From Nanohaloarchaea archaeon SW_7_43_1 (lineage in GTDB: Archaea > Nanohalarchaeota > Nanosalinia > Nanosalinales > Nanosalinaceae), in assembly GCA_003009795.1 (NCBI GenBank), contig PXPE01000001.1, forward strand, positions 186,001 through 250,000: a stretch of DNA of 64,000 nucleotides, given 5' to 3'. The position numbers and the translations under genes are program-made. How positions within the stretch are numbered: the first letter of the stretch is position 1; each line of letters begins with the position of its first letter. Of the stretch, positions 17,854 to 36,004 are shown one piece after another. The notes beneath the pieces are model-generated. The model did not search any database. It had not been told where the DNA came from and saw only the letters and a program-made list of their open reading frames with translations.

Positions 17854-17891
17854 ACTGAAAGCCTTAAAATAATCGGAGCGAATAATTACTT

Positions 17892-19409: not shown

Positions 19410-19468
19410 TCGACAGATAAACCTATATAAAACCGGAACGGATAATATTGACTATACAGTGAGCAAAC

Positions 19469-19612
19469 ATGGCATGTGAAGGACCTATACTACAATGTGT
19501 AATGAACAATCCGACAGTAGCGGGAATAGGAGTCGCAGCAGGATTCATACTTGCAAAAGCCATGGACATGAGAAAACGCCGTAACCAAGGATTTGGCGGA
19601 GGAGGTTTTTGA
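19469..19612 (+). CDS. Small 47-aa membrane protein
   Basis: An ATG at 19469 opens a 47-residue frame: a short N-terminal part with two Cys (C-E-G-P and Q-C-V), one Ala/Gly/Ile-rich hydrophobic helix, then a basic segment M-R-K-R-R and a Gly-rich end. A TATAAAA-like box (19430-19437) lies about 32 bases upstream. Its own 3' end supplies the GGAGG ribosome site for the next gene, 2 bases away, which supports a real operon member. The family is not recognised. Confidence 0.6.
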   Translation: MACEGPILQCVMNNPTVAGIGVAAGFILAKAMDMRKRRNQGFGGGGF

Positions 19613-19613
19613 A

Positions 19614-19871
19614 ATGAGTGATAAAAGATTCCATGAATACGTTTACAGTGTAGAAAACTGGCTTGATGAACTTGTAATCGCATTTCTATCTTTCGGAGTA
19701 ATAATAGTTCTAGTCGATCTGCTATTGTTCCAAAGCCGAAACTATTCATTTATGACACTGGGAGATGCAATATTTCCATGGATCACGATGATAGCCCTGA
19801 TGATAATTGGAAGAGAGCTTTGGCTTCTTAACAGAAATGTGAGAGAACACCTAGAGAGGACGGGTGAATAA
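19614..19871 (+). CDS. Small two-TM protein
   Basis: The ATG at 19614 is preceded by GGCGGAGGAGG, a strong ribosome site, so it is preferred over the in-frame TTG at 19593. The 85-residue product has a charged N-terminus, two hydrophobic helices (about residues 19-39 and 49-69), and a charged C-terminal helix. No conserved family is recognised. It is followed after 4 bases by the first of two polytopic paralogs. Confidence 0.6.
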   Translation: MSDKRFHEYVYSVENWLDELVIAFLSFGVIIVLVDLLLFQSRNYSFMTLGDAIFPWITMIALMIIGRELWLLNRNVREHLERTGE

Positions 19872-19875
19872 TTAA

Positions 19876-20469
19876 GTGGCAGTAGCCGGTTTCAATCAGC
19901 TTCTGGAAACAATGGCCCAGATAGACGCTTTTACGGGACTACTTCCGTTTGTACTGACCTATGTTGTTTTATATGCCGCTCTAAAGGACGTACCTGTTAT
20001 TAAGGACAATGATAAATTCCCTCCTTTGATCGCAGTTATTGGAGCGTTTTTCGTTGCAAGATTTATAGTTGTCAATCCTTTCTACCAAGACTTCTTTGTG
20101 ACCTTTTTCGGCAAGCTGGTGGTAGGATTAATAGGTTTCATAGGTCTACTGATTTTGCTAGCCTTCACAGGATTTAACGTAGAAAAAAGCAATGCGCCGA
20201 TATTAATGGTCTTGATGATAGCTATTGCGGGCGCTGCTTTCACGTCTGCCGGAGGATTCGGACCTCCTTGGAACCTTTCCGTGCTTTCGAGTGCTGAATT
20301 ATCCTCATTGATAGGTTTCACACTCGACTCAGGTCTTATATGGATCCTGGTGGTAGGTGGAGCCTTATTCTGGGTTTCAGGCGACGAGAACAATGAGGAT
20401 GGCCCATCAGGCATGGATTTCATGAAATGGATGTTGGGAGAAAGCGGCGAGGATCCTGAAGGAGGGTAA
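19876..20469 (+). CDS. Polytopic membrane protein, paralog 1
   Basis: A GTG start gives 197 residues with five or six membrane helices and an acidic C-terminal tail. The N-terminus reads L-L-E-T-M-A-Q-I-D-A-F, followed by L-P-F-V-L-T-Y-V-V-L-Y-A-A-L. The next gene shares this pattern (E-T-M-M-Q-V-D-V-F ... Y-G-A-L) and the same helix spacing, so the two are diverged duplicates. No transporter or channel signature is seen. Similar small polytopic proteins sit near type IV filament genes in other DPANN genomes as far as I recall; that is not checked here. Confidence 0.65.
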   Translation: MAVAGFNQLLETMAQIDAFTGLLPFVLTYVVLYAALKDVPVIKDNDKFPPLIAVIGAFFVARFIVVNPFYQDFFVTFFGKLVVGLIGFIGLLILLAFTGFNVEKSNAPILMVLMIAIAGAAFTSAGGFGPPWNLSVLSSAELSSLIGFTLDSGLIWILVVGGALFWVSGDENNEDGPSGMDFMKWMLGESGEDPEGG

Positions 20470-20991: not shown

Positions 20992-21837
20992 TTACCAGTC
21001 TTCCATATCAATGTCTTCAATATCGTCCTGATCGACATCCGAACTTGTCTCTATTCCTCTTTCCTGTTTTATTTCCTGTACTAGGGAGGTCAGGTCCCGG
21101 ACATTGTCCACAAGTGATGGTAGAACCTGTTGGAAAGCCTTTTCAAGTCCTCCGATTCTTGACTGGTATTCTTCTATATCGCCTTCGATATCATCCATTT
21201 TTTGAATTACCTGTTTGTCGTCTTCGTCATCCCTTACTTCAAGATCGTGTATTCGTTGTTCGAAGTCTTCTGCTCTTTCCTTAAGTGCATCCATCTCTGA
21301 GTATACATTTTCAAATTCGTTTTCAACTCTTTCAAAGTTCTCTGCTACAATTGTTTCAATTAGTTCTTCAACATTTCCGGAGTTGTTGCCTGAGAGATTG
21401 GTTTTTGGTGGAGGGTTGGCTGCAGGAGGGTTTTGAGCTTGTGTTGTCTGATTCATTTCTGGATTCTCGGAGTTAATCTGGTTGTTTTCCGGTCCCTGTG
21501 TCTGATTATTGAGTTCGTCGTTCGGGCCCATGCTTTGATTGTTTTCTTGGTAAGGTGTCATCGGTTGTGGTCCTTCTTGTTCTGCTGTGGCAGATGTTTT
21601 CACTGCCTGGTTTATAGCTCCTTGAATCTCATCTCTGGAGTACTGTCCCTGTAGTTCCTGTCTTACTTCTTCCTCTGAATATCCTTGTTCGAAAAGGTTT
21701 TCGACCGTTCTCTGTATCCCTGAGGAGCTAAAATCTTGGAAATCGTTTTCCTGGTTCATACCTGGTTCTTGTTCCTGTTTAACGTTTTCACTATCATCAT
21801 CATTACCTCTTAGTCTCCCGAATAACTGGAATTTCAC
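20992..21837 (-). CDS. Acidic coiled-coil protein with UBA-like N-terminal helices
   Basis: The 281-residue soluble protein starts with a short basic stretch. A predicted three-helix segment at about 40-80 follows (V-E-N-L-F-E-Q-G-Y-S-E-E-E-V-R-Q-E-L-Q), resembling small UBA-like helical modules. Then comes an Asn/Gln/Pro-rich linker (about 85-150) and a coiled coil (about 155-260) beginning E-L-I-E-T-I-V-A-E-N-F. The end is acidic. It is likely co-transcribed with the next upstream coiled-coil gene (3-base gap). Its position beside the secretion ATPase suggests a cytosolic adaptor, by analogy with coiled-coil ArlC/D/E of archaella; this is unproven. Confidence 0.6.
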   Translation of the reverse strand: MKFQLFGRLRGNDDDSENVKQEQEPGMNQENDFQDFSSSGIQRTVENLFEQGYSEEEVRQELQGQYSRDEIQGAINQAVKTSATAEQEGPQPMTPYQENNQSMGPNDELNNQTQGPENNQINSENPEMNQTTQAQNPPAANPPPKTNLSGNNSGNVEELIETIVAENFERVENEFENVYSEMDALKERAEDFEQRIHDLEVRDDEDDKQVIQKMDDIEGDIEEYQSRIGGLEKAFQQVLPSLVDNVRDLTSLVQEIKQERGIETSSDVDQDDIEDIDMEDW

Positions 21838-21840: not shown

Positions 21841-22359
21841 TTACCATTCCTCATTACTGTTTTGTGAGCCTTTTTTATTATTTGATTGGGTTTTCCGGTG
21901 TTTATCCATTTTCTTCTGTATTACTCTTTCAATCTTCTTTTCCGGTACCCCGTTTTCCTCCTGGATCATTTCTTTCACCTCTTTTTTTGTGGCAAAAGAA
22001 GACTGTATAGGGTTCATTAGATCCATGTAGTTTTCTATTTCATCTATTTGCTGTTCGGTCACGTATTTCTTTTTTTCACGGTTAAGTGCCTTGATATCTA
22101 CCTCCATGTTTGCTACTCTGTCCCTGACCTTCTCTAAATCTTCTTCAAGATCCTGCATATCTTCTTGGAGAGCATTAGTCTTGTCTAGAAGTGAGTCATC
22201 GAGAGTGTTGACTCTTGCTGTAAGGTTTCTTACCTTCTCCTCCAGGTCTCTAATCCTTCTGTTGAAGTCATTGACCCGGTTTACGATACGGTTTAACAGA
22301 TCTTGCTGTGGCACATCTTTTATTGTAGCAAACCTTGAATAATAATGCTGGGATGACAT
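21841..22359 (-). CDS. Coiled-coil protein divergent from the secretion ATPase
   Basis: From the ATG at 22359 the product is about 172 residues: a short N-terminus, a long heptad coiled coil (V-R-N-L-T-A-R-V-N-T-L-D-D and onward), and a basic C-terminal third ending N-S-N-E-E-W. Starts are uncertain; a GTG at 22316 would avoid overlap with the divergent ATPase gene. It is followed after 3 bases by the other coiled-coil gene. No domain is recognised. Location and type suggest a partner of the ATPase or platform. Confidence 0.55.
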   Translation of the reverse strand: MSSQHYYSRFATIKDVPQQDLLNRIVNRVNDFNRRIRDLEEKVRNLTARVNTLDDSLLDKTNALQEDMQDLEEDLEKVRDRVANMEVDIKALNREKKKYVTEQQIDEIENYMDLMNPIQSSFATKKEVKEMIQEENGVPEKKIERVIQKKMDKHRKTQSNNKKGSQNSNEEW

Positions 22360-24614
22360 TACAGGACAAAGACGTTTTTGACTACGAGTACGATGATGAG
22401 AGCGGTACAATCGAGGTGAATATGCTTGGATCGATTTACGGGGCTTCTATAGAAGATTATCCTGAGGTAATGTCCCGAGTCATCAATATTTTACAGGAGG
22501 TACCTGATGCATCTTCGGTAGTGCTCTCTGAGTCCCGTGATTATGAATACGATGATGACCAGGTAAGAATGTTGAAGGAAGTCTCGGATGCTATAAGAGA
22601 TATTTCATCACAAGGATATCTTTCAGAGAGTATCAGAACAGATAAATGTGAGAGCCTTTATCAGGATCATCTACCTGAAGTCCAGAGAATAGTTATCGAT
22701 CAGTTAAGGAAAGATCCTGTCGGAGGCTATGTTGAACTGAAAAGAAAGGAGAGGCACCTCAAACAGGAGATGAACGAGTCGTACCCACAGAAAAAACGGT
22801 GCCTGAAATACTTTATACAGGATGTAGTTAATCCCGTTAAGAAGAGACTGGAAAACTGTGAGATGATTGATCAGGCCCGAAGCGATGAGTTCATAACAGG
22901 GCACCATGTCGGTGATAGAGAGGTTTATAGGGAGTTTTTCCATCCGTTGGTACGTCCTAACTTCATGCTTACAAAGTTTATGTCACTTCCCCCGGAAAGA
23001 GGGGAGGAAATCGATCGGTATGAATCAAGAAACGATGTAGAGGTCTCGGTCTACGATGTTCCTGACCAGGTTCAACCGGTCTATCATGTAAACCCACCGG
23101 AGTTCAATCTTTCCGAGGAAAAATACAGATTACTTGATGCAGCGAGAAGATTCCTGGCCTCCCACCAGCCAGAGTCAGGGGAATTCGCCCGGCCGGATAG
23201 AATGAGGCAGGTATTCCAAAACATTGGGAGAGATATGATACGGGATATCGCCCAGCAGATGGATATACAGCTTCCCAGAGAGGAATCAGAACAATTGACT
23301 TCAATACTTAACCGTTATACCTCCGGACTTGGAGTCCTGGAGTTACTTCTATCTGATCCAAAGATCCAGGACGTGTTTATCAACTCACCGATCGGAAACG
23401 CACCTATCTACATCAAACATGAAGAATACGAAGAGTGTGAGACCAATCTAATCCCGACAAAAGAGGAGGCAGAGTCATGGGCCACACGTTTCAGAATCAA
23501 ATCAGGTAGACCGTTGGATGAGGCAAACCCGGTTCTTGATACAGACACAGAGGTTCCAGGCGGAAGAGCCCGAGTAGCAATAATACAGGAGAATCTGTCG
23601 CCGGAAGGACTCGCATTCGCCTTTAGACGGCACAGATCACGGGCCTGGACATTACCATTGTTCATAAAACGTGATTTCATTAATCCGCTCGGTGCCGGCC
23701 TTTTATCGTTCATAGTAGACGGTTCAAGAAGCGTTATCTTTAGCGGTACGAGAGGAGCTGGAAAGACGTCCTTACTGTCGGCTTCTATGCTTGAGATACT
23801 GAAAAAAGAAAGGATAGTGACTGTAGAGGACACACGGGAGATTCCGATCCGTCAGATGAAGGATCTAGGATTTAATATTGAGTCTATGAAGTCAAGATCA
23901 GTGATTACTCAGGTAGAGAATGAATTACCGGCTGAAGAAGCGATCAGGACATCTCTGCGCCTAGGAGACTCAGCTCTTATTATTGGAGAGGTCAGGTCTG
24001 ATGAGGCCAAGACTTTGTATGAGGCTATGCGTGTTGGCGCTGTCGCTAACTTTGTCGGTGGAACCATCCACGGTGAATCAGCTTACTCCGTATTTGACAG
24101 GGTTGTAAATGATTTGAATGTTCCGAAGACTTCTTTCAAGGCTACTGATATCATTGTCTCGGTTAACAAGATCAAAAGCCCTGATGGTCTAGAGACTTAC
24201 AGACGGGTAACAGCTATTACAGAGGTTAGAAAGGACTGGACTGATGATCCGATGGAAGAAGATGCCTTCGTCGATCTTATGCGGTATGATTCCAATGAGG
24301 ATAAACTAGTTCCAACTGACACATTGAAGAACGGGGAATCGGAGATACTGAATAGGATTGCAGAGAATATTAGGGAATGGAAGAATAACTGGGAAGCCGT
24401 ATGGGGCAATATCAAACTGAGAGAAAGAATGAAGAAAGAAATTGTCGATAAAGCAAAAGAAACAGGTAATGATGAGTTACTCGAAGCCGAGTTTGTTGTG
24501 AAGGCAAATCAGAAATACCACATACTTGCACAAAGAGTGAGTGAAGAGTATGGGAAACAGGATCCGGAAAGAATATTCGCTCGATGGCAGGAATGGCTTG
24601 AGCAACAGGTGTAG
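22335..24614 (+). CDS. Type II/IV secretion ATPase, GspE/VirB11 (archaeal pilus motor) family
   Basis: Hexameric cytosolic motor that powers assembly of type IV filaments or related secretion. The 759-residue protein has a divergent ~270-residue N-terminal part, then the conserved N2/core: D-P-K-I-Q-D-V-F-I-N-S-P near 340, F-R-I-K-S-G-R-P near 390, Walker A at about 470-480 (S-G-T-R-G-A-G-K-T-S), Asp/Walker B box A-L-I-I-G-E-V-R-S-D-E-A near 545, and His box G-G-T-I-H-G-E-S near 578. A further helical C-terminus of ~130 residues follows. It starts at 22335, or at the ATG at 22353, and is followed 3 bases later by the platform gene. No archaellum ArlH partner is nearby, so a pilus or secretion role is preferred over a swimming motor. 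Confidence 0.9.
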   Translation: MNNNAGMTLQDKDVFDYEYDDESGTIEVNMLGSIYGASIEDYPEVMSRVINILQEVPDASSVVLSESRDYEYDDDQVRMLKEVSDAIRDISSQGYLSESIRTDKCESLYQDHLPEVQRIVIDQLRKDPVGGYVELKRKERHLKQEMNESYPQKKRCLKYFIQDVVNPVKKRLENCEMIDQARSDEFITGHHVGDREVYREFFHPLVRPNFMLTKFMSLPPERGEEIDRYESRNDVEVSVYDVPDQVQPVYHVNPPEFNLSEEKYRLLDAARRFLASHQPESGEFARPDRMRQVFQNIGRDMIRDIAQQMDIQLPREESEQLTSILNRYTSGLGVLELLLSDPKIQDVFINSPIGNAPIYIKHEEYEECETNLIPTKEEAESWATRFRIKSGRPLDEANPVLDTDTEVPGGRARVAIIQENLSPEGLAFAFRRHRSRAWTLPLFIKRDFINPLGAGLLSFIVDGSRSVIFSGTRGAGKTSLLSASMLEILKKERIVTVEDTREIPIRQMKDLGFNIESMKSRSVITQVENELPAEEAIRTSLRLGDSALIIGEVRSDEAKTLYEAMRVGAVANFVGGTIHGESAYSVFDRVVNDLNVPKTSFKATDIIVSVNKIKSPDGLETYRRVTAITEVRKDWTDDPMEEDAFVDLMRYDSNEDKLVPTDTLKNGESEILNRIAENIREWKNNWEAVWGNIKLRERMKKEIVDKAKETGNDELLEAEFVVKANQKYHILAQRVSEEYGKQDPERIFARWQEWLEQQV

Positions 24615-24617
24615 AAA

Positions 24618-26756
24618 ATGGAGGAAAAGGAAAGAAACCGTCTGAAAGGAATTGTCAATGATCTCAACAAGGATATGGAAATGCCTCCATACAATACCGG
24701 CTCCGAAAGAGGTTATTCCCGTGAATATAAGGAGTATAAGAAAGAGGAGAAGGAGGATCAGAGACTTTCAAGATATGAGAGGCTTTGCATAAAATTTTCT
24801 GAAGTACTTGATATTAGGGCAGGAGAAAGAACCCAGAAAAAGCTTAGCCCGCCTCTAAGCCTGCTTAAATGGGATGTAACTCCTGGTATGGTACTATCGG
24901 CTTCTGTAGGCGTGAGCTTTTCTATGTTTGCATTATGGGCAGTACTTTTCCTTACAAATATGCTTCTAGGTCCTTTGATACCTGTTTCAATAATGGTGAT
25001 AGCCGGAGTTATAGCTGTCGGTTCAGGAGCCTACATATACTACAAGCCGGTTTATGATGCCAAAAACAAGGTGATCAAAAGCAGCGGAGAGATGATTCTT
25101 TCCATACTTTATATGGTGATCTATATGCGTAGCTCACCGAACCTTGAGGGAGCGATACGTTTTGCAGGATTAAACCTTGAAGGACCTATTTCCAAGGATC
25201 TCAAAGGTATTCTCTGGGACTTGGAGGTTGGAAAATTCAACAATATAGAGAAATCTTTAGAAAACTATACCCGGGCCTGGAAAAATTACAACGATGACTT
25301 CCTTGAATCCCTACAGCTTTTGAAGGCAGCTGTAAACGAGCCCAACAAGGAAAGACGGGAATCACTTCTCCAGGACTCTATAGACCGTATTCTTGATGGA
25401 ACACAGGAAAAGATGAAACACTACGCCCAGGGCTTGAAGACACCTGTAATGATACTGAATGCTATCGGAGCAATGCTTCCGGTTCTTGGCATGATCATGC
25501 TTCCACTTATCTCGGTTTTCATGGGTTCAAGTATAACCATTACACACCTGTTTCTAACCTTCAACATCATGCTTCCTGGCTTTCTCTACTGGTTTATGCA
25601 GAGGATTTTAAGCTCCCGTCCCCCAACCGTAAGCTCAAAACCGACAAGCGAGGAAAGCCTGCCAACCCGTGGAAGATACCTAATAGAATCCCTTGATTTC
25701 GAGATACCGACCTGGCCGATAGGACTGGGCATATTCATGTTCATCGGGTTTTACGGGATTGTCGGTTACCTGATATTTCCGTATACCTATCCCTTAGGTG
25801 ATGCAGCCCAGGAAGCCGCAATACCGGTTATGCTCGGAGGTTCTGACGGTGCTTCACCGCTTGCAATGCTTATGAGAAGCCTAAGTATAACCTCCGGCCT
25901 GGGACTAGGAATAGGAACGGCTTTGATACTTGGTAACAAGAAAAGGAAGAAGGCGGAGGAGGATCTGAGGAAGATCGAACAACAGTTCCCAACCGCTCTT
26001 TTCCAGCTAGGTAACAAGATTTCCGGTGGAACACCTATTGAACTAGCACTGGAGGAAGCAGCGGAATCAACATCTGACCTGGAGATCTCTGATCTGTTCA
26101 AAGAATCTTCCAGAAATATAAGGGATATGGGAATGACTTTTGAAAAATCCATATTTGACGAAAGCTATGGTTCTTTGAGAAACTTTCCCTCACAGATGAT
26201 TCACACGGTGATGAAGGCAATACTCAAATCTTCTGATAAAGGCACACACATGGCCTCAATGGCGATGATGACAATATCAAAATACCTTGATAATATCCAC
26301 AAGACACAGGAAAGACTGAACGATCTGATGGAGGATACCACTACTACCATTCTGATGCTTGCATATCTTCTAGCACCGATTGTTTCAGGGATAGCCGTGG
26401 GAATGTCACAGACAATAATCACTGCAATGTATGAGCTCAGCAGCTCATTCTCGGAGATAGAAGGAGAGATAGGTGGTTCACAGGCAGGAGTTTCGGAACC
26501 AGGATTCACAGGTATACTCGGCAACCTCGATACAGCTATCCCTCCCGAAGTACTGCAGTTCGTGGTAGGTATTTACCTCATACAGCTGCTGTTCATACTT
26601 GGAACCTTCTACATGAAAATCCGGGAAGGAGAAAACAAAACCTACAGAAACATGTTCATAGGGAAGATACTTATTTCAGGAATGATATTCTACAGTTTAA
26701 GCCTGATCATAGTATCAGTCCTATTCGGAAGTATTGTACAAGGTGTCCCGACATAA
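24618..26756 (+). CDS. TadC/ArlJ-like membrane platform protein with two T2SSF domains
   Basis: The 712-residue integral membrane protein is the inner-membrane base on which the ATPase works. It has a charged cytosolic N-terminus (~85 residues), a helix pair at about 92-145, a first T2SSF-type helical domain, a second helix group at about 275-335, further helices at about 368-395 and 415-435, then a second T2SSF domain (I-E-Q-Q-F-P-T-A-L-F-Q-L-G-N-K-I-S-G-G-T is typical). Four terminal helices follow. Duplicated T2SSF halves are usual for archaeal platforms. The stop shares bases with the next small gene (TAATG). Confidence 0.85.
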   Translation: MEEKERNRLKGIVNDLNKDMEMPPYNTGSERGYSREYKEYKKEEKEDQRLSRYERLCIKFSEVLDIRAGERTQKKLSPPLSLLKWDVTPGMVLSASVGVSFSMFALWAVLFLTNMLLGPLIPVSIMVIAGVIAVGSGAYIYYKPVYDAKNKVIKSSGEMILSILYMVIYMRSSPNLEGAIRFAGLNLEGPISKDLKGILWDLEVGKFNNIEKSLENYTRAWKNYNDDFLESLQLLKAAVNEPNKERRESLLQDSIDRILDGTQEKMKHYAQGLKTPVMILNAIGAMLPVLGMIMLPLISVFMGSSITITHLFLTFNIMLPGFLYWFMQRILSSRPPTVSSKPTSEESLPTRGRYLIESLDFEIPTWPIGLGIFMFIGFYGIVGYLIFPYTYPLGDAAQEAAIPVMLGGSDGASPLAMLMRSLSITSGLGLGIGTALILGNKKRKKAEEDLRKIEQQFPTALFQLGNKISGGTPIELALEEAAESTSDLEISDLFKESSRNIRDMGMTFEKSIFDESYGSLRNFPSQMIHTVMKAILKSSDKGTHMASMAMMTISKYLDNIHKTQERLNDLMEDTTTTILMLAYLLAPIVSGIAVGMSQTIITAMYELSSSFSEIEGEIGGSQAGVSEPGFTGILGNLDTAIPPEVLQFVVGIYLIQLLFILGTFYMKIREGENKTYRNMFIGKILISGMIFYSLSLIIVSVLFGSIVQGVPT

Positions 26757-26869
26757 TGCTAAAACATAAAGGAAGATTACCCAGTTTTATGTTGTATGAG
26801 ATAGGCCTAGCGATTGTAATACTGGGAGCACTGCTAATAATCTGGTCCAAAGGTGTTTTACCTTCATGA
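26756..26869 (+). CDS. 37-aa single-TM protein
   Basis: The ATG at 26756 overlaps the platform gene's TAA. The 37-residue product has a basic N-terminus (L-K-H-K-G-R), one hydrophobic helix (I-G-L-A-I-V-I-L-G-A-L-L-I-I-W) and a short tail. Its TGA overlaps the next ATG (ATGA). Such chained overlaps on both sides support a real gene. The family is not recognised. Confidence 0.55.
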   Translation: MLKHKGRLPSFMLYEIGLAIVILGALLIIWSKGVLPS

Positions 26870-27042
26870 AAGGAGCATCAATGAACTTTGTGATCGGGCT
26901 AGTAATCGCGTTGTTCATGTTCGGTATCCTAGCAGCCATAATAACATCAACAATATTCGATGCACAGGGAGCAGCCCAGGGCTGTGGACCAATATCATCA
27001 TTAATATCCGACGTATCAGGAGGAGGAATCGAGACCTGCTAA
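26866..27042 (+). CDS. Small pilin-like protein with K-G-A-S N-terminus
   Basis: The 58-residue product begins M-K-G-A-S-M, followed by a long hydrophobic helix (F-V-I-G-L-V-I-A-L-F-M-F-G-I-L-A-A). A basic residue, Gly and small residue just before the hydrophobic helix is the class III (prepilin) signal pattern processed by PibD-type peptidases. The short remainder has two Cys (Q-G-C-G-P, E-T-C at the very end) that could form a disulphide. Overlap with neighbours and the pilus context support a filament subunit or minor pilin. Confidence 0.6.
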   Translation: MKGASMNFVIGLVIALFMFGILAAIITSTIFDAQGAAQGCGPISSLISDVSGGGIETC

Positions 27043-27046
27043 CACA

Positions 27047-28969
27047 ATGTCATCAACAGTAAACTCAACGGTATTCAAAATCTTTCTGCCAGTCCTAATA
27101 GGCCTAGCCATATTCGCAACACTCGACTCCATCAAAGTAAACTCGCTTGACCCTAGCGTAAACAGCCTAGAAGCTGCATTAAACTCAATGGATAGAAGTG
27201 TTACCTTTGGGGACATCGAAGATGAACAAAAAGGTAGACAGGAGATAAGAGAAGCAATTTTTTACAATATTATTATTGCTCAAAAGTGTAATTTATTGAA
27301 AGCCGTGTATGATGCCGATTGGGAAAGATTACAGACTAGTGATAAAGCAAGTTGGGGGGGTATAGCACCAGATCCTGACAAAGACGTGGTTTTTTTCTAT
27401 AATGGTGATCAAATTAGTGAGGGGTTTGAAGTCTCGAAATCTGAGGAACTTTCGATAAGCTGTGTAGGAGCTGATTCACCGACAGAAATGATAAGACCGA
27501 ATGCAGAAGATTTGAGAGAAGGTGCTGGTACGAGTAAAACCAATGATATGGAAGGAAAATTTGGTAGGGTTTCGTTTGATATGAATGATACGGTAGTTAT
27601 AGAAGATCCGAAAATTGGATCAACCTCTCTCTTCGAAGGGAACCCCTGGCGGCCTAGCGGCAACTTCCCTGATTTTTGGAGGAATCAAAGATTATCTATG
27701 ATGTTGCCGAATGGATTAGAGGAAACTAACGATTTGTGTGATAACGTGGGGCCTGAACATTATAAAAAAACCCAGTCGGTGTTTTATAAAGAATATGAAG
27801 CGATTTCAGGTCTTTATGAGGCTTTCACCGGGAACAACGAGGATATAAATGTTTATGAGGGAAGGGAAGGTCCGAGCTCTATTTACGCATTTAGGGTAAG
27901 AATGCAAAATGTGCCTATAATAAAAGAGGGATATCTTGGCCCCAAACAAAACCTAAACACATGTCAAAGAGGGACTGAATCAAAACTTAAGAAATTTTTA
28001 ATTGGTGGAGAGAATCAAGATTCTGCTAGATATGTTTTGTGTAAAAGCGCTTCTGGCTATATTCAGTCTAACGCCGGCTCTATAGATAACACAGGAGAGA
28101 CAAATGTAGATAGAATTGATTTGAAACGTGACTTTGCCACGGAAACTATATTTCCAAAACTTTTGATCCGGGAAAATTCCGATTATTGTTTAAGCGATAC
28201 ACAGAGCGAATTTATTGATTATAGACTAAATGGAGATAAATGTACTACAGAGGAAGTTCTAAAAGACAGAGAAGGATCTGAACCTGTGACCAAAAATTGG
28301 AGAGGTCTTGAGGTTAAGTGTGGAATAAAGAAGGAAACAATTACACAGGAAAACGGAGGAGGATTTAATTTCTATAATACGGGTTGGTTCAAAACAGGAG
28401 GAAAGTTGAATGGCGATATTAAAGCAGCAGGATCTCTTTATGAAACTGAAAACGGTAATGATGGTGGGGTGGAGTCTGCGGATCAAAATACGGAAGGCAA
28501 TCTGATCATAAGGTCTAACGACCAACAAGGTAGCAAAGTGACATTTAAGACGGCGCCATTCTCAGTGGAGAACGTTGGTCTGAGCTTTGAGACTAAAGGG
28601 GATATGAACGTAAATCTAAAGCAGGATGAAGATAAGCAAATCCAATTCAGGATTGAAATGGATCGAAACAATGAAAATAAACAATCTGGTGTTGATTATA
28701 CATTTGATATCATAGAAAATGGGGATACCAAGAAGTCATTTACTGATACAATAGACGCTGAACAACAAGAGAATGCTTTTGATGTAGTAGTAGATCTTCA
28801 ATACAGAGAAAACTTAGAATTAACTGTGAAAGGAGGCGATGAAGAAAAGGATATATTTGATGAAACGATAGAAGTTTCAGAAATTAATGTTAATTACATT
28901 GAATTTGAAACCTCAGTAGGAGATACTGTTCCAACAACAAAGGTTAAAGAGGTCTCGATTAAAGAATGA
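27047..28969 (+). CDS. Membrane-anchored large ectodomain protein of the filament locus
   Basis: The 640-residue protein has an N-terminal hydrophobic helix (about residues 11-29) with no K-G signal, then an entirely hydrophilic, probably extracellular body with about eight Cys. The last ~230 residues are beta-rich and resemble a jelly-roll carbohydrate-binding type fold (N-F-Y-N-T-G-W-F, later V-G-L-S-F-E-T-K-G), a weak impression. By eye the coding sequence after about 27200 is more AT-rich than its start and neighbours. It overlaps the next gene by ATGA. It may be a tip adhesin or cargo; no family is recognised. Confidence 0.6.
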   Translation: MSSTVNSTVFKIFLPVLIGLAIFATLDSIKVNSLDPSVNSLEAALNSMDRSVTFGDIEDEQKGRQEIREAIFYNIIIAQKCNLLKAVYDADWERLQTSDKASWGGIAPDPDKDVVFFYNGDQISEGFEVSKSEELSISCVGADSPTEMIRPNAEDLREGAGTSKTNDMEGKFGRVSFDMNDTVVIEDPKIGSTSLFEGNPWRPSGNFPDFWRNQRLSMMLPNGLEETNDLCDNVGPEHYKKTQSVFYKEYEAISGLYEAFTGNNEDINVYEGREGPSSIYAFRVRMQNVPIIKEGYLGPKQNLNTCQRGTESKLKKFLIGGENQDSARYVLCKSASGYIQSNAGSIDNTGETNVDRIDLKRDFATETIFPKLLIRENSDYCLSDTQSEFIDYRLNGDKCTTEEVLKDREGSEPVTKNWRGLEVKCGIKKETITQENGGGFNFYNTGWFKTGGKLNGDIKAAGSLYETENGNDGGVESADQNTEGNLIIRSNDQQGSKVTFKTAPFSVENVGLSFETKGDMNVNLKQDEDKQIQFRIEMDRNNENKQSGVDYTFDIIENGDTKKSFTDTIDAEQQENAFDVVVDLQYRENLELTVKGGDEEKDIFDETIEVSEINVNYIEFETSVGDTVPTTKVKEVSIKE

Positions 28970-29184
28970 ATTTGTTGGAGGATTATTATCGTTATATTGA
29001 ATTGAATTTAGCTCGGCGTAAAGGGATGGATAAACCGATTTTTCTTATTGCTTCTTTGACTTTGGCTATCATGTTTGTGATGGCCTATTACTTGGCAACT
29101 ACCGGCTGGATGAGTAGCGTAGGAGACATATTCAATACCACGGTTAATAATTATCAACCGGAACCGGGCGGTTCTGGAGGATAA
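28966..29184 (+). CDS. Single-TM protein with Gly-rich tail
   Basis: The 72-residue product has a charged N-terminal ~25 residues (L-E-D-Y-Y-R-Y-I-E-L-N-L-A-R-R-K-G-M-D-K-P), a hydrophobic helix (I-F-L-I-A-S-L-T-L-A-I-M-F-V-M-A-Y-Y-L-A), and a short polar tail ending G-G-S-G-G. The R-K-G before the helix is close to a prepilin signal but spaced by M-D-K-P. It is coupled to the upstream ectodomain gene by ATGA overlap. The family is unknown. Confidence 0.5.
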   Translation: MNLLEDYYRYIELNLARRKGMDKPIFLIASLTLAIMFVMAYYLATTGWMSSVGDIFNTTVNNYQPEPGGSGG

Positions 29185-29227
29185 GGGAATCCAAGTTTAT
29201 TTATCCTAGCTTTGAGTTCATTGTTGT

Positions 29228-29353
29228 ATGAGCATTTCGATCAGGATGATTATCTCAATGATTATCGGTATTGCTTTGGTATTGGCACTTGCTTTCCTGG
29301 TTCAAAATCAGACATCTGGAGCTGAAACGTTTCTGGTAGGTTTGCTTCCATGA
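29228..29353 (+). CDS. 41-aa single-TM protein
   Basis: The ATG at 29228 follows a TTTATTTAT TATA-like box about 28 bases upstream, so a new transcript may start here. The product is one hydrophobic helix with a short Arg-containing N-terminus (S-I-S-I-R-M) and a polar end. The TGA overlaps the next ATG (ATGA), which supports expression. No family is recognised. Confidence 0.5.
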   Translation: MSISIRMIISMIIGIALVLALAFLVQNQTSGAETFLVGLLP

Positions 29354-29586
29354 ACTCTGAAACTGCTATAGTAGTCGCTATAGTGATGGCGGTTTTGATC
29401 ATTCTTTCGATGGCAACCATATACAGCGGGAGCCTTGACCAGGTTGGTAGCTCGCTTTTTGGAGAAAACTCTGATGAAAATGGCATTTTTGAACCAGATG
29501 GAGAGATGAATGAGTTCCCGACTAGAGAAAACTCCCAGACCGAGGAATCAGTTTTTCAGGAGGACTTAGTATATGACGAGCTCTGA
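29350..29586 (+). CDS. Pilin-like single-TM protein with acidic tail
   Basis: The 78-residue product starts M-N-S-E-T-A, then a hydrophobic helix (I-V-V-A-I-V-M-A-V-L-I-I-L-S-M) and an acidic, probably extracellular tail. It lacks a basic-Gly signal, but the Glu just before the helix recalls the Glu5 region of type IV pilins. It overlaps its neighbours on both sides in the gene chain. Subunit function is inferred from context only. Confidence 0.5.
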   Translation: MNSETAIVVAIVMAVLIILSMATIYSGSLDQVGSSLFGENSDENGIFEPDGEMNEFPTRENSQTEESVFQEDLVYDEL

Positions 29587-30007
29587 GACACCAGGAACTA
29601 TTTCAAGGATTATCTTAGGTGCAATTGTGGCGGCTTTATCCACAGGTATTATGGTAGCTCTATTTTCCGGTATCGCGGGAGATGGACTGTCGAGAGAGAA
29701 ACAGGATCTGGGCACTCTCGTTGATGATGTTAATTCTGTATGTGATGGTGCAGAAGGAGCGGGAGGCGGATTGCCGAATTTAGAAAATTTTTACATAAAC
29801 AGATCTGATAATGAAAAAAATAAGGTTTATCTGGTCAGCCCAGAGAATGAAATCAAGGAGACGAGAGAAGTAGAGTGTATAATTAATAACGAATTCAGGG
29901 TCAGTGACCGTTACAAAGTCAGTTTGCTAAATGAAAACACCGATGAAACCCTTGTTAAGGTTTCTAAGAAAGGAGCCTCAGCCTCTCAGGGTGGTTTAGC
30001 TGAGTAA
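29573..30007 (+). CDS. Single-TM pilin-like protein of the filament locus
   Basis: The 144-residue product has a short polar N-terminus with one Arg before a helix (I-I-L-G-A-I-V-A-A-L-S-T-G-I-M-V-A-L-F). A hydrophilic globular part follows, with two Cys (S-V-C-D-G and E-V-E-C-I) likely to be oxidised outside the cell. It overlaps the preceding gene by 14 bases. The size and layout match minor pilins, but no family is recognised. Confidence 0.5.
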   Translation: MTSSETPGTISRIILGAIVAALSTGIMVALFSGIAGDGLSREKQDLGTLVDDVNSVCDGAEGAGGGLPNLENFYINRSDNEKNKVYLVSPENEIKETREVECIINNEFRVSDRYKVSLLNENTDETLVKVSKKGASASQGGLAE

Positions 30008-30404
30008 AGGATTATCTGTTACTCTTAGTCTGGCCATAGTTACTTTCTTTGCTGTAGCTTTAGTAGCTAATATAGGAATTGAGAGGGTTGCGGAAATAGA
30101 GGATAGAATGTCGATGCATGCAGTACCTCTTGTAGCTCAGAGAGTAGAGGTAGCGATCTATACCCTTAACTCAGGCAATAATGGTGAGGTCCAGTTAAAT
30201 CTACGTGACGAATACAATCTTTCGAAAAACCCTGATCAAATTAACTACAATTTTTCAAGTTATATACCTAGTCAGGATGATACAAGAAGATCCGAGATCA
30301 ACCCTCCTGAAGGCGTAGGATATGTAATAATAGAAGAGGGAAGATCTGAATACATTTGCTTGAGAAAAACAGGGACTATCAAGGTTAGTCCGGGTGAGTG
30401 CTGA
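30000..30404 (+). CDS. Prepilin-like protein with a probable CTG start
   Basis: The first ATG in this frame (30108) would remove the membrane helix. The frame is open back to a TAG at 29997, and the codons after it read L-S-K-G-L-S-V-T-L-S-L-A-I-V: a perfect K-G-x-S prepilin signal and helix. The first codon is CTG at 30000, preceded by GGGTGG, a plausible ribosome site, and overlapping the previous stop region. I take CTG as the start, giving 134 residues. The ectodomain has one Cys near the end (I-C-L-R) and a final E-C. The frame call is good; the exact start is uncertain. Confidence 0.55.
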   Translation: MSKGLSVTLSLAIVTFFAVALVANIGIERVAEIEDRMSMHAVPLVAQRVEVAIYTLNSGNNGEVQLNLRDEYNLSKNPDQINYNFSSYIPSQDDTRRSEINPPEGVGYVIIEEGRSEYICLRKTGTIKVSPGEC

Positions 30405-30793
30405 TGGAAGATGTTTTACCTTATGTAGCTGCCTCTGTCATGATCATACTGATAATCCTGGTATCAATCAGGATGCAGGTTTCTATGATGGAAGGACTTA
30501 ACGATATCACAGTTGAGAACAATGACAGACTAGGTTACAAGACGGCAGGTTCTTTTCAGTTCTTATCGAAAGGAGACAGATTTGGTGTTCTTACAAGAGA
30601 ACAGTATGACAGCTTGAAAGATAACTGCGGGCGATCCGTGGACGGGTTTTCCGGAGAGCCATTAACACTTGAGGATGCGGGCTGTCCGGAGGTAAAAACC
30701 CCGTTACCTGTTCCTTTGATGATTGTAGAACCTGAATCCGAAAACTCTTATAAGAAAATGCAGGTAGGTGAGACAAGTGAAGGGTTCAATTGA
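30404..30793 (+). CDS. Single-TM pilin-like protein of the filament locus
   Basis: The ATG at 30404 shares a base with the previous TGA (TGATG) and is preferred over the upstream GTG at 30398. The 129-residue product starts M-E-D-V-L-P-Y-V, then a helix (A-A-S-V-M-I-I-L-I-I-L-V-S-I), a heptad-like stretch and a small ectodomain with two Cys (D-N-C-G-R and A-G-C-P). It has an acidic residue just before the helix and no K-G signal. It is probably a minor subunit; no family is recognised. Confidence 0.5.
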   Translation: MEDVLPYVAASVMIILIILVSIRMQVSMMEGLNDITVENNDRLGYKTAGSFQFLSKGDRFGVLTREQYDSLKDNCGRSVDGFSGEPLTLEDAGCPEVKTPLPVPLMIVEPESENSYKKMQVGETSEGFN

Positions 30794-31211
30794 TATAACG
30801 GTTCTTATTGTTGCAGTAGTGCCTATGGTTTTGCTTTTGATTCTTTCTGCTTACTTCATCGCCGAGGATAATTTGAATGCAGAGCTTATAGGTGAAATGA
30901 GGTTTGAGGAAAGTAAGTTCCAGACTATATCTGTTCACTCCCAGATTATGGATAATGATACGAGAAGAAAAATTGGTTTATACAGTGTTCAGGAGAACCA
31001 GGTTCTGAAGAATGATGTTGAGGAAAGAGCTGAGGATATTTTATCAAGTTATACAGATTATTACAGGTTTCAGGCTGCAGGAGACAGTATAAATGTAGAA
31101 TCAGAAGCTGATGGGAACCGTGTAAGGTTCTCCACCTACGTTCCTTCTCCTAAACAAGAAATGGTTAAGGCTACTACTGCTTTAGAGATAACAAATCAGG
31201 AGGACCAGTGA
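30777..31211 (+). CDS. Prepilin-like protein with K-G-S N-terminus
   Basis: The GTG at 30777 is placed 5 bases after AGGTGA (30766-30771) and is preferred over the GTG at 30768. The 144-residue product then begins M-K-G-S-I-D-I-T, followed by a helix (V-L-I-V-A-V-V-P-M-V-L-L-L-I-L), fitting a class III signal. The rest is hydrophilic without Cys. It overlaps both neighbours. It is likely a filament subunit or pseudopilin. Confidence 0.55.
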   Translation: MKGSIDITVLIVAVVPMVLLLILSAYFIAEDNLNAELIGEMRFEESKFQTISVHSQIMDNDTRRKIGLYSVQENQVLKNDVEERAEDILSSYTDYYRFQAAGDSINVESEADGNRVRFSTYVPSPKQEMVKATTALEITNQEDQ

Positions 31212-32278
31212 TGAAAGGACAGTATGTAGGTATGCTCACTGTATTTGTTTTAGTTTTCATAATAACAGGTAATGTTTTCGGAGCCCTTCTTTTCCAGAAT
31301 GAATACAAAGAAGAGATTGATTTCAGTATAGGAAATTACAACACTATAGCTGAGGCACAGGTAATAGGTGAAAGATACATACCTAGGATAGAAACAGAGA
31401 CAAACTATTCAAGCAATATAATGGCGTTCAGAATTGGTATGAACAAAGGAGAATACGAAGGATTAGAAGATTATGATGATCCAGAGGGGGATCTTTCATG
31501 GGGTTATAACACTCCTAGATACAGTGAACTTAGGGAGGAGTTCAGGAAAGCTACTAGAGATCATCTTAAAACCCAGAATGAGGTTTTCAATTGTCGGAAT
31601 CCAATGGTTGAAACCCTTCAAGTGGAAAAAGAGCCTTTATCCGTAAAAACAACGTTCAAGAACAACTGGATTAACTGTACATCCTCAGGAGCTGAGGCCA
31701 GTATAAAAATCCCTGAAGAAGCATCTTCAGTACATGAGAAAAACCGGTACCTACAGATGGCAAAGTACTCAGTAGAGTTCTCAGGAAGATTATCCGATCA
31801 TATTGATGACTACTGGGATAATAATGGACCTATCACCAACGATGGGTACGAAAATGGTAGATGCGGTGTAGGCGAGGGTACTGTCGAAGAAAATGCGGAA
31901 ATTGATGCGGAGAAAGATATACCGGATACGAAAAATGTTTATGGAAAAATTTTATTCAAAAATGATGAAGGGAACAGACCTGAATGGGTGAGCCTGAAAG
32001 ATCAAAACACCACTTTCACATCCTCAACAATTAAATCCAGCCGTATAACTGATACCTCTTCCTGTTGTCAAAACTATAAAACTAACGATGAAGGAGAAAC
32101 TTCCTGTGCTGATTCTGATAATTCACATGAGGCGGAAGCTACGGCTGCTGCTACAGAGGTCAAAATTAATTTCACCATTAAGGATTCGGAAAGAACTGTT
32201 GTGGACAGTGAAGGCGCTGAAAGAAGCATAAATTTCAAGTTCAAAAAGATAGAAGACGTTCCCGACAGCTATAATTAA
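31211..32278 (+). CDS. Large prepilin-like protein with K-G-Q N-terminus
   Basis: The ATG at 31211 forms TGATG with the previous stop and has GGAGG about 8 bases upstream. The 355-residue product starts M-K-G-Q-Y-V-G-M, then a hydrophobic helix; K-G-Q before the helix is the commonest archaeal class III signal. The ectodomain has at least six Cys, including adjacent ones (S-S-C-C-Q-N), so it is probably disulphide-stabilised outside the cell. It is the last gene of the chain before albA. The size suggests a tip or minor pilin; family unknown. Confidence 0.6.
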   Translation: MKGQYVGMLTVFVLVFIITGNVFGALLFQNEYKEEIDFSIGNYNTIAEAQVIGERYIPRIETETNYSSNIMAFRIGMNKGEYEGLEDYDDPEGDLSWGYNTPRYSELREEFRKATRDHLKTQNEVFNCRNPMVETLQVEKEPLSVKTTFKNNWINCTSSGAEASIKIPEEASSVHEKNRYLQMAKYSVEFSGRLSDHIDDYWDNNGPITNDGYENGRCGVGEGTVEENAEIDAEKDIPDTKNVYGKILFKNDEGNRPEWVSLKDQNTTFTSSTIKSSRITDTSSCCQNYKTNDEGETSCADSDNSHEAEATAAATEVKINFTIKDSERTVVDSEGAERSINFKFKKIEDVPDSYN

Positions 32279-32325: not shown

Positions 32326-32613
32326 ATGCCAGAAGAAGATGACAACACAGTATACGTCGGTTCAAAACCTGCTATGAGCTACGTTCTCGCTGTAGTAACA
32401 CAGTTCAACGAAGGACACGAAACAGTACACGTCAAGGCGAGAGGGAAAGCAATTTCGAGAGCAGTAGACGTTGCAGAAATGGTAACGAGTAAGTTTGAGG
32501 AGACAGCAGAAGTTGATGATATATCAATTGATACAGACAAGATTGAAACAGATGAAGGAGACGAACTTAACGTATCATCAATCCAGATCAATCTTACACA
32601 AGATCAAGAGTAA
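32326..32613 (+). CDS. albA: Alba chromatin / RNA-binding protein
   Basis: Alba is a small dimeric protein that coats DNA and also binds RNA. The 95-residue product has the conserved strand and helix [12 protein letters not shown] (with the binding and acetylation Lys) and [13 protein letters not shown]. The C-terminal loop is acidic, as expected for a halophile. The promoter is clear: ACTATATATTT at about 32278-32288, and AGGTGAA before the ATG. A hairpin and T run at 32637-32664 probably ends the transcript, so it is monocistronic. Confidence 0.92.
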
Positions 32614-32719: not shown

Positions 32720-33010
32720 ATGAATAGAAAGGGAATGTCCCAGACATTGGCACTTATTGTGGCTGCCTCAGTTCTGATGATGACAGCACTAACCGTTATC
32801 TTCATGGTTCAAGGCGGTCTGGGAGATGTGAACAGCGGTACAAGTAGATCAAGCTGTGTAGCGACTATGGAAGCAAAGTGTGCCGGAACATCAGGAAGAA
32901 TAAAAGCTCCAACCACATGCTATTCTGATGGTAGCCCTATTCCAAGCGCTCCAGATATTGTACCTCAGACACAGGGAGCAGAATTTGAGTGCAGCAGACT
33001 CAACGAATAG
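32720..33010 (+). CDS. Pilin-like protein with K-G-M-S signal, paralog of 37477
   Basis: The 96-residue product starts M-N-R-K-G-M-S-Q, then a helix containing L-I-V-A-A-S-V-L-M-M-T-A-L-T. The K-G-M-S is a class III signal. The small ectodomain has four Cys, enough for two disulphides. The helix is almost identical to that of the gene at 37477. A TTTTTATAC box about 25-30 bases upstream suggests an independent, nearly leaderless transcript. A candidate major filament subunit: small, own promoter, Cys-stabilised. Confidence 0.65.
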   Translation: MNRKGMSQTLALIVAASVLMMTALTVIFMVQGGLGDVNSGTSRSSCVATMEAKCAGTSGRIKAPTTCYSDGSPIPSAPDIVPQTQGAEFECSRLNE

Positions 33011-33018
33011 TGATCTAG

Positions 33019-33366
33019 ATGGACAAGACTATTGAGATAATGGTTGTTGCCATGGTAGCCTTATCAACCGGTGTAGTTATCCTTTTCCTTACAAGCGGCC
33101 AAACAGACGGATTTACCTCATTTGTAGATAACCGTCAACAGGATACTAAATGTACTTATTGGAAACAAACATGTGAAGGAGGAGAAAAACCACCCGATTA
33201 CTGTGGAGAATCTGTTTCCGACTGTCCACCCGATACAGCTAATTCCGAAGGGAGTGGAGGCACCACTGGTCAAAGCTCAAATGGTGATTCAGGAAATTCT
33301 GATTCAAGTACAGATGATTATTCTGGCGGTAGCCAATCGAATACGGGCACCGGCCAAATTGAATAA
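33019..33366 (+). CDS. Pilin-like protein with Cys-rich head and Ser/Gly tail
   Basis: The 115-residue product starts M-D-K-T-I-E-I, then a helix (M-V-V-A-M-V-A-L-S-T-G-V-V-I-L-F-L). A Cys-containing part follows (K-C-T-Y-W-K-Q-T-C, D-Y-C-G, D-C-P-P), then a low-complexity Ser/Gly/Asn/Thr tail of ~45 residues. The start resembles the M-D-K of the gene at 47416. It follows the previous pilin-like gene by 8 bases, so they are probably co-expressed. The tail may be a flexible or glycosylated surface segment. Confidence 0.6.
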   Translation: MDKTIEIMVVAMVALSTGVVILFLTSGQTDGFTSFVDNRQQDTKCTYWKQTCEGGEKPPDYCGESVSDCPPDTANSEGSGGTTGQSSNGDSGNSDSSTDDYSGGSQSNTGTGQIE

Positions 33367-33533
33367 TGATGAATTCTATTGCGTAACAATTGAACCTGTT
33401 TGGAAAATGGGGCTAGCAATCAATTAACTGGTTCCTTTTTGACCTATATCATCACTTACTACCAGCAGAACAGGCCTTATGAATGGTTGCTCTTGCCCGA
33501 TGTTTAATAACTGAGCTTCAACCATTGATAAGT

Positions 33534-34568
33534 ATGCTGTCTTCATTGAAGGAAAAGCTTTCCGGTGACAGTGAATCTTCGGAGATTGAAGAGTCTGAAG
33601 TTATTGATGATATAAAAGAAGAAGTATCGACAGAAGATCAGGAAGTAGATAGTATCAATGGAAGCCTTGAGAATGTTGATGAACTTGAGAAGGAAATAGA
33701 GGAGAAACTCTCCGAACTAAATAATTCTGGGCAGGATAGTGCCCCTCAAACTGAGAACGGTGTAGATGAAGCCGGTAATTCAGAAGAATCAGAAGAAGTT
33801 GATAATCCGGTTGAAAAACTGCCTGAAACTGTAGAAGAAGAACAAAATAAGGAGAACTTTGAGAAACCCGGAGCCGAAGATTCTATTGAGTTAGAGACTG
33901 ATGCTGAAGATAATGCTTCGAAAGAAAAGGAGGTTAAAAATGTTGCTCAGGAATCAGACTCAGAGTCATTGCATAAGCCCTCACTCCCCGGAGCTGGGAA
34001 TAATCCGGATCTTCCATCCCAGGTCAAGCAGTTCGAGGAACATGTAATTGCAGGCGAATCTGAAGAACTTGCTAGGATAAATGACCTTGAGCAAAGAATC
34101 GAAAAGATGGAGCTCCGATCAACTAAAGATCTTCAGGAGAGAATCCAAAGTCTGGAGTCCAGGATTGATTCAATGCAATCAGTTGAAAAGTTCAATAAGA
34201 GATTACTGGAGCTGGAGGAAGTAGTAGCTGATAACGGACCTGCAAAGGTAGATGAAATAGGTAGAAAAGTCGATCAGCTTTGGGAGGCTTTCGACGAAGA
34301 ACTTGACGATATTGAGAAAAACGAAGATAGAACAGATAAGAAAATCCGGCTTTTATGGCAGGCACTTGATCTTAAGACAGATGAATTAGAATCCCTAATC
34401 GAAAACAATGATGAAAGAAAGATAGAGGAACTTTGGGAAGCAATGGATGAAGAGCTTATGGATGTTGAATCAAGAATACATGAGAATAAAGAAGAGATAA
34501 ATGATCTTTACTCATCGGTAGTAGAGCTTTCAGAGCTTATGAAGAAGGAAGTTGAATATGACCACTAG
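33534..34568 (+). CDS. Acidic coiled-coil protein with C-terminal ~26-aa repeats
   Basis: The ATG at 33534 has TTTAATAA 24-31 bases upstream and fits a leaderless start better than an in-frame codon at 33483. The ~344-residue product has an acidic, probably disordered first 170 residues, then heptad coiled coil. Near the end are three repeats with the core [KI]-[VI]-x-x-L-W-[EQ]-A-x-D, spaced 26-30 residues. No membrane segment is present. It is similar in style to the next gene. It may be a cytosolic adaptor of the filament motor, analogous to ArlC/D/E; this is an analogy only. Confidence 0.6.
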   Translation: MLSSLKEKLSGDSESSEIEESEVIDDIKEEVSTEDQEVDSINGSLENVDELEKEIEEKLSELNNSGQDSAPQTENGVDEAGNSEESEEVDNPVEKLPETVEEEQNKENFEKPGAEDSIELETDAEDNASKEKEVKNVAQESDSESLHKPSLPGAGNNPDLPSQVKQFEEHVIAGESEELARINDLEQRIEKMELRSTKDLQERIQSLESRIDSMQSVEKFNKRLLELEEVVADNGPAKVDEIGRKVDQLWEAFDEELDDIEKNEDRTDKKIRLLWQALDLKTDELESLIENNDERKIEELWEAMDEELMDVESRIHENKEEINDLYSSVVELSELMKKEVEYDH

Positions 34569-34666: not shown

Positions 34667-36004
34667 ATGGGAGAAGACGTAATATTTGGGGAAGATGAGG
34701 ACTCAGAACAGGAAACTCTTTTCGAATCAGAAGAGGAAGAAAACAACGAAGAACAGGATGTAATGTTCGGTGAAGATTCTGAGGAATCAGAAGCTGAAGA
34801 CTCGACAGATGAAGAAAATGAGGACGTCTTACTCGATGAAAACAATACAGAAAATGAAGAAGAGACAGAAACTGAAGAGGCTGAGGATGACGAACCAGAG
34901 TACAGTACTGAAGAAGACGATGTAGATGAGGATCCCAGTGACAAAAAGGAAACTCAAAATGAAGATGAATCCAAAGATGACAATGAACAAATCGGAGATC
35001 TAGAGAAGAGACTGGCTGAGCTTGAACAGAAAACAGACCTCCAAGATAGAGAAGAACTAGATGAAGTAAAGACGAGAATGGATGAACTCGAGGAATCGGT
35101 GAGGGAATCCGATATTTCTGATGAAATTGAGGATTTGAAGAATGATATCACACACCTAGAAGAAAAAATAGAGGATACTGAAGAAACTGATATCTCCTCA
35201 CTCGAAGATCAGTTGGATGAAATAGATAGGGCGGATGAAATTGAACAGGTGAAAGACAGACTTGCTGAAAAATCCGATCTAATAGAGGAGATTAGGAACA
35301 ACCATGAAGAACGGATGGAAAAACTTCAGGAGGAAATAGATCAGTTCGAAGATCGGGAATTATCGGATGAAGGAACTGAGGAAAACCTTCAGGAAGTTGA
35401 GGAAGAAATAAAGGAACTGGAAGGAGATATTGAGGGTGTTCTGGATAGACAAACCGAGTTCGAGGAAAAACTTCAAGATTTCAATTCCGGAGATTTCGAT
35501 AGGTTACAGGTTAAGGTACAGAACATAGAGAATAAGGTTGAGGAACTGGAGAAACAGGAACAGGAAAAAGATGTCTCCAAGCTTTCGGAAGAAATCGAAC
35601 AGCTGAAAGGAATGATATCAGACTATAAATGGATTTTCAACGACTTCGATGATCTTGCAGAGCTGAAGCTTCTATCACAGGATGAATACGAGGAGCTACA
35701 GGAAGGCATGAATGAGACTCAGTCTAAAGAAACCGATGAAAGAGTGGAGGCGATTGAGGAACTAAGTGATAACATGGAGAGATTCGCCGAGAAAGTCGAG
35801 CCCGGTCAAGAGCTCCGAGAAGATATTGAGCTTTTAGAGCAGAAAGTTCAGGAAATGGAGGAAAGGAAAGAAGAGAACAGTCTCGGCCCTCTGGTCAAGA
35901 GGGTTGAAAGACAGGAAAAACAGATAGAAGAGATCAGAGAAGGTTACCAGGAACTTGGTGATATGATGGAACTGGTGCTTAAAGAACTGAGAGAAACCAG
36001 ATAA
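34667..36004 (+). CDS. Long acidic coiled-coil protein
   Basis: The 445-residue product is preceded by AAGAGGAG, a strong ribosome site. Its first ~125 residues are almost wholly Glu, Asp, Ser and Asn, with repeated D-V-[IM]-F-G-E-D. Residues 125 to the end are near-continuous heptads with many E-E-L-E and I-E-E-L units. It ends with a basic helix, L-V-L-K-E-L-R-E-T-R. No membrane or enzyme motifs are seen. It is grouped with the coiled-coil gene before it and with those at 20992 and 21841, all around the secretion locus. The family is not recognised. Confidence 0.6.
   Translation: MGEDVIFGEDEDSEQETLFESEEEENNEEQDVMFGEDSEESEAEDSTDEENEDVLLDENNTENEEETETEEAEDDEPEYSTEEDDVDEDPSDKKETQNEDESKDDNEQIGDLEKRLAELEQKTDLQDREELDEVKTRMDELEESVRESDISDEIEDLKNDITHLEEKIEDTEETDISSLEDQLDEIDRADEIEQVKDRLAEKSDLIEEIRNNHEERMEKLQEEIDQFEDRELSDEGTEENLQEVEEEIKELEGDIEGVLDRQTEFEEKLQDFNSGDFDRLQVKVQNIENKVEELEKQEQEKDVSKLSEEIEQLKGMISDYKWIFNDFDDLAELKLLSQDEYEELQEGMNETQSKETDERVEAIEELSDNMERFAEKVEPGQELREDIELLEQKVQEMEERKEENSLGPLVKRVERQEKQIEEIREGYQELGDMMELVLKELRETR

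Follow-up and report, generated by a model that had tools for sequence, protein, structure and literature searches.

The window analysed here, a stretch of 64,000 nucleotides from the miniature, host-dependent Nanohaloarchaea archaeon SW_7_43_1 (positions 186001-250000 of contig C1 of G000, a single-contig genome of 956,550 bases), contains a gene block that, judged by its sequence, very probably encodes an archaeal type IV filament machine. A secretion ATPase and a fused platform protein are followed by about thirteen pilin-like genes in all, labelled 0, A-J, K and L. Nine of these families possess a prepilin-type motif, lysine or arginine plus glycine (K/R-G) before the helix, in most or all genomes, and up to four (H, L, E, and D in half) have no leader. 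The assignment is supported by the ATPase and platform, the motif statistics, a conserved gene order, purifying selection, even cysteine numbers and a type IV prepilin peptidase of the A24 family. ATPase, platform and coiled-coil genes are already known as Locus 2 of DPANN archaea (Hamm et al. 2024, PMC11291902). Compared with the available text of that paper, the new points are the pilin-like cassette with its fixed order, the evidence that it is coding, the division into families with and without a leader, and the duplicated modules.

The core genes are listed below. Fractions are counts of orthologues, "motif" is the prepilin-type motif, and dN/dS is the ratio of nonsynonymous to synonymous substitution rates.

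22353..24614, + strand: secretion/pilus-assembly ATPase (alternative start 22335); PF00437, E 4e-15, over the cut-off
24618..26756, + strand: fused platform of 712 amino acids (aa) with two T2SSF stretches (PF00482)
26756..26869, + strand: gene 0, pilin-like, 37 aa; start overlaps the platform stop; basic residue-Gly motif 8/8; dN/dS 0.24
26866..27042, + strand: gene A, prepilin-like, 58 aa; KG-type motif 11/11; two Cys 11/11; dN/dS 0.13
27047..28969, + strand: gene B, large ectodomain, 640 aa, leaderless in this genome; motif 9/13; 6-12 Cys, always even
28966..29184, + strand: gene C, prepilin-like, 72 aa; motif 9/11; dN/dS 0.24
29228..29353, + strand: gene D, helix-only subunit, 41 aa, leaderless here; stop upstream; motif 5/11; dN/dS 0.04
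29350..29586, + strand: gene E, leaderless pilin-like, 78 aa; motif scored 2/11, non-canonical there too; dN/dS 0.11
29573..30007, + strand: gene F, pilin-like, 144 aa; motif 7/10
30000..30404, + strand: gene G, prepilin-like, 134 aa, CTG start; motif 10/11; dN/dS 0.05
30398..30793, + strand: gene H, leaderless pilin-like, 131 aa; motif 0/11; in-frame stop upstream; two Cys 11/11
30768..31211, + strand: gene I, prepilin-like, 147 aa; motif 11/11; dN/dS 0.11
31208..32278, + strand: gene J, large prepilin-like, 356 aa; motif 10/10; 4-10 Cys, always even
32720..33010, + strand: gene K, prepilin-like, 96 aa; motif 11/11; four Cys 11/11
33019..33366, + strand: gene L, leaderless partner of K; motif 0/11; in-frame stop upstream; Glu at residue 6 in 9/11

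An earlier note on this DNA had named a GspE/VirB11-like ATPase and a TadC-like platform with a double T2SSF domain, and both hold. The best relatives of the ATPase in the PDB are GspE2 (2oap, E 2e-27), CpaF (E 6e-21) and FlaI (E 7e-17), and by sequence it is GspE2/CpaF-like. Among the members scanned, NCBIfam models name the ATPase alone, always below the cut-off. In the platform PF00482 is found in two stretches, at best with E 4e-5 and 24.0 bits, just under the cut-off of 25.2. Its identity amounts to 59-71% in nine family members with a conserved core, and the platform of SW_4_43_9 is 97% identical; the close relatives carry nanohaloarchaeal names. A split platform occurs in L047 only, possibly caused by a frameshift of that assembly.

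The ATPase genes of this locus are interrupted in some relatives. In L041 and L047 the interruption measures about 1.5 kilobases and lies around residue 495-500, next to the conserved VEDT box, and the ATPase of a Nanoarchaeota relative (L064:6230-9958) carries an intein.

Exactly eleven tightly packed genes for proteins with a single N-terminal helix lie between the platform and position 32278 (26756-32278), as the note had counted, the 37-aa gene and the gene with CTG start included. They are followed by an Alba gene, two further genes of this kind (32720-33366) and two coiled-coil genes. Thus, the coordinates given before are real but the block is larger, and the genes at 32720, 33019, 33483 and 34667 have to be added. 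From the ATPase to J, neighbours overlap by at most 26 nucleotides or leave a gap of at most 43, and most overlap or abut. The helix counts are based on a simple hydropathy rule, which finds a single N-terminal helix in 9 of 42 genes of at least 100 aa elsewhere in the window. The order 0-A-B-C-D-E-F-G-H-I-J-Alba-K-L is fixed in about eleven nanohaloarchaeal genomes.

The K-G-x pattern before the helix, reported before for some of these genes, proved to be enriched. It is present as K/R-G in 7 of the 13 window proteins, a number that none of 5000 shuffles of the N-termini attained (expectation 1.35). Among the orthologues it occurs in 90 of 140, where shuffling gives a mean of 24 and a maximum of 39. 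With this enrichment the proteins conform to the class III signal peptide of pilins, as a sequence motif with predicted cleavage. The constant presence of the motif in families 0, A, I, J and K refers to a relaxed form in which histidine or alanine is also allowed. In contrast to the nine families above, the motif is never found in H and L, practically never in E, and in about half of the D proteins. A misplaced start codon was considered as the cause of the missing leaders in E, H and L and was rejected, as in-frame stops occur close upstream in nearly all genomes. The glutamate at residue 6 of family L is position 5 if the methionine is not counted, like Glu5 of bacterial pilins, which is possibly a coincidence.

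Neither an archaellum nor a known pilin family, nor a known archaellum or pilus operon, was recognised in the block. In this respect the earlier note was right, but the prepilin peptidase it had missed exists elsewhere in the genome. This Peptidase_A24 protein (G000:C1:827698-828576) has a weak family score, and with it as query an orthologue was found in 18 of 19 family genomes.

The note had also considered that the small open reading frames (ORFs) might lack conservation or coding signal. Against this stand the gene order conserved in about eleven genomes and dN/dS values of 0.04-0.34 (small genes 0.04-0.24, B 0.34 over the alignable part), obtained from one sister genome and with few substitutions in the shortest genes. 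Purifying selection acts on all measured genes (0 and A-J, J over its first 227 alignable bases; K and L are outside the sister contig), including the ORFs of 37 and 41 residues. The small genes are therefore regarded as coding, and chance ORFs are ruled out by conservation and dN/dS together. Gene G, which starts with CTG here and with ATG in the sister genome, is likewise taken as coding because of its dN/dS of 0.05. Furthermore, the cysteine number is even in 95 of 97 cysteine-bearing family members, which fits disulfide-bonded exported ectodomains.

Two large ectodomain proteins, B and J, are present as described before, but "Cys-rich" applies only modestly (8 cysteines in 640 aa and 6 in 356 aa, respectively). 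Gene B is the most divergent between the sister genomes. In the sister metagenome-assembled genome (L049/L033) it is read as two separate frames (206 and 426 aa), owing to either a frameshift or an error of assembly. The AlphaFold2 model of J shows an N-terminal helix followed by a beta-rich part (predicted local distance difference test score, pLDDT, 69). Profiles of B and J gave nothing credible among PDB sequences; matches to picornavirus VP1 (E 0.4-1) are at chance level. In addition, some genomes contain extra copies: L047 has H-I-J in tandem duplicate with a weakly similar copy of G (identity 31% for H and 37% for I), L034 has two copies of B, and L040 a second B adjoining an A. These duplications suggest exchangeable units, namely G-H-I-J and A-B or B.

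Of 28 genomes of the phylum, 22 gave a match to the platform profile, among them all 12 that are near-complete. Distant platforms with 29-40% identity exist in Nanoarchaeota, Aenigmarchaeota and Jingweiarchaeum. In the distant loci L064, L066, L068, L071 and L074 a long series of genes for single-helix proteins, large cysteine-bearing ones among them, comes after the platform; in L069 and L072 no such series was found there.

Locus 2 comprises an ATPase, a platform and coiled-coil genes in cluster 2 DPANN including Nanohaloarchaeota (Hamm et al. 2024, PMC11291902). The block resembles it in the CpaF-type ATPase, the TadC-type platform and two coiled-coil genes, and is distinct from the GatE/GroEL locus; the correspondence was judged by gene content against the legend, not by accession. 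The interpretation of the note is thus supported as far as it means a type IV filament-type machine with many unfamiliar pilin-like genes, but the locus itself had already been reported. In text and legend of that paper, as far as available, filament proteins (FlaF, PilA) are named for Locus 1 only. The ordered thirteen-gene cassette is absent from the available text and may be drawn there in part. Locus 1 has its likeness in L031, a second pilus locus of the same genome with GatE, a chaperonin, a coiled-coil protein and PilA-like pilins. The family F profile matches L031:11106-11774 (DUF7289-like, E 2e-4) and the family G profile L031:10706-11101 (DUF7266-like, E 1e-5); both proteins are neighbours of each other beside the L031 ATPase. 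The genome has a third ATPase/platform locus, L030, in which the platform genes are split and a KaiC-like ATPase is encoded. The secretion ATPase of L030 (L030:8282-13069) is interrupted by inteins, with two intein-splicing stretches and LAGLIDADG domains. No mention of DUF7266, DUF7287 or DUF7289 was found in the literature searched.

The type IV pilus loci of haloarchaea and other archaea (Makarova et al. 2016, PMC4858521) share with the block a secretion ATPase, a TadC-like platform and small pilins, and the distant relationship of F and G to the DUF7289- and DUF7266-like proteins of the Locus 1 type is a further likeness. However, the block has far more distinct subunits than the proposed four-component ancestral plan, and the scanned members of B, G, I, J and K show sub-threshold Pfam matches only (DUF7266 once for G, E 0.02). 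For one group of nanoarchaeal ATPases the cognate pilins could not be identified (Makarova et al. 2016); the genes described here are candidates for the partners that DPANN pilus ATPases have so far lacked.

Similarity also exists to Tad/Kil pili (PMC12075869) and Epd-like pili (PMC6668835): the ATPase is CpaF-like, pilins are very short, the minor pilins are several and include a large one, disulfides are predicted and tip modules can be exchanged. The Kil Tad pilus of Myxococcus, which is used to contact prey, provides a tested example of this design; its minor-pilin tips are exchangeable, one of its pilins is large and disulfides are predicted (PMC12075869). In Tad and Epd systems the platform is encoded by two genes and a TadZ/FlaH-like ATPase is present, whereas the block has a single fused platform and no ATPase of that type was found in it. 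Because Tad and Epd platforms are split (PMC6668835), the locus was not filed with them.

From these data a mechanism can be proposed. The A24 peptidase would trim the leader-bearing subunits, and ATPase and platform would stack them into a filament. K is probably the main (shaft) subunit, since it has the best-conserved helix of the families aligned and a leader and cysteines in every genome. A paralogue of K lies beyond FEN1 (window 37477-37749); it shares the helix, has no K-G leader, and an in-frame stop occurs a few codons upstream of its start. B (with A) and G-H-I-J might each make up a minor-pilin complex of the tip that is exchangeable and stabilised by disulfides; because B and J are large and most divergent, their fast-changing ectodomains are placed outermost as putative tip proteins. 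The leaderless H, L, E and D could be base or priming subunits beside the tip complexes, and the cytoplasmic coiled-coil proteins may scaffold or regulate the motor. The filament would finally touch the haloarchaeal host. The reading with several minor-pilin tip complexes is slightly more likely than not, and a role in host contact is evenly balanced. The explanation as a whole (type IV filament, tip complexes, haloarchaeal host contact) is held with moderate confidence. It bears on how DPANN archaea recognise and hold their hosts, and a compact, ordered, near-universal gene set offers K as named candidate for the shaft and B and J for the tip. A DPANN-specific filament class with exchangeable A-B and G-H-I-J modules and obligate leaderless pilins joining without peptidase processing, serving ectosymbionts as an organelle to recognise and attach to or attack hosts, is a tentative and rather doubtful extension.

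Several points weigh against this explanation. Filament formation, adhesion and an effect on the host are predictions from the genes, as are the choice of the major pilin and the place of the leaderless subunits in the filament. Several families show only 12-36% identity, and their orthology derives partly from gene order. The AlphaFold model of B was poor (pLDDT 36) and was set aside, the moderate model of J matched no solved fold (Foldseek against the PDB, nothing at E<=0.001), and no adhesin or lectin domain was recognised. Moreover, the locus is near-universal in the phylum and might therefore have a housekeeping role, e.g. in envelope maintenance, rather than one in host contact.

Among the alternatives, a secretion machine in which a short pseudopilus pushes proteins or lytic factors out or into a host, like type II secretion, is unlikely. 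The many different subunits, the minor-pilin-like sizes and the large distal proteins resemble a pseudopilus set, and the best solved relative of the ATPase bears the name of a type II secretion protein. However, no obvious gene for an exported substrate occurs in the block, and Archaea have neither the outer membrane nor the secretin of type II secretion systems; a surface filament and a secretion machine are not distinguishable by sequence, nor are short and long filaments. Still less probable is a bindosome-like display, with ATPase and platform inserting single-helix proteins into a static envelope complex. Helix-only proteins of 37-41 aa and leaderless subunits would be odd building blocks of a filament, but K corresponds to what is expected of a pilin that polymerises, with a helix that is short, strongly conserved and provided with a leader. 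It is very improbable that the block encodes an archaellum-like or motility filament whose switch proteins are FlaC/D/E-like coiled coils: coiled-coil neighbours have weak FlaC_arch matches and the ATPase aligns to FlaI models, but it scores 133 with the FlaI model, whose cut-off is 550, and for FlaH, FlaF, FlaG and archaellin no Pfam match exists in the block and no NCBIfam match among the members scanned.

The block is flanked and interrupted by the following genes; upstream of the ATPase these are two divergent coiled-coil genes and two genes for five-transmembrane (five-TM) proteins.

19876..20469, + strand: five-TM protein, conserved neighbour, which may belong to the machine; similar five-TM pair in L034, L039, L040, L046 and the distant L065 and L068
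20472..20990, + strand: second five-TM protein, paired as above in relatives; dN/dS 0.15
20992..21837, - strand: coiled-coil protein; weak FlaC_arch (E 0.002) and DUF7310 matches, both below cut-off; position conserved
21841..22410, - strand: coiled-coil protein; orthologues begin about 150 aa from the end
32326..32613, + strand: Alba protein within the block; PF01918, E 2e-20; same place in relatives
33483..34568, + strand: coiled-coil protein 1; no helix or signal found
34667..36004, + strand: coiled-coil protein 2, acidic; no helix or signal found

The true start of the coiled-coil gene 21841..22410 is probably internal, because the long frame overlaps the ATPase gene. Further upstream (window 16008-19871) lies a run of helix-plus-coiled-coil and TM genes. 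For the two of these that were scanned, Pfam gave nothing at E<=0.001, and in relatives, too, genes of this sort come before the five-TM pair. Far from the locus, window 61323-61715 encodes a further single-helix protein, whose N-terminus carries an SKG motif.

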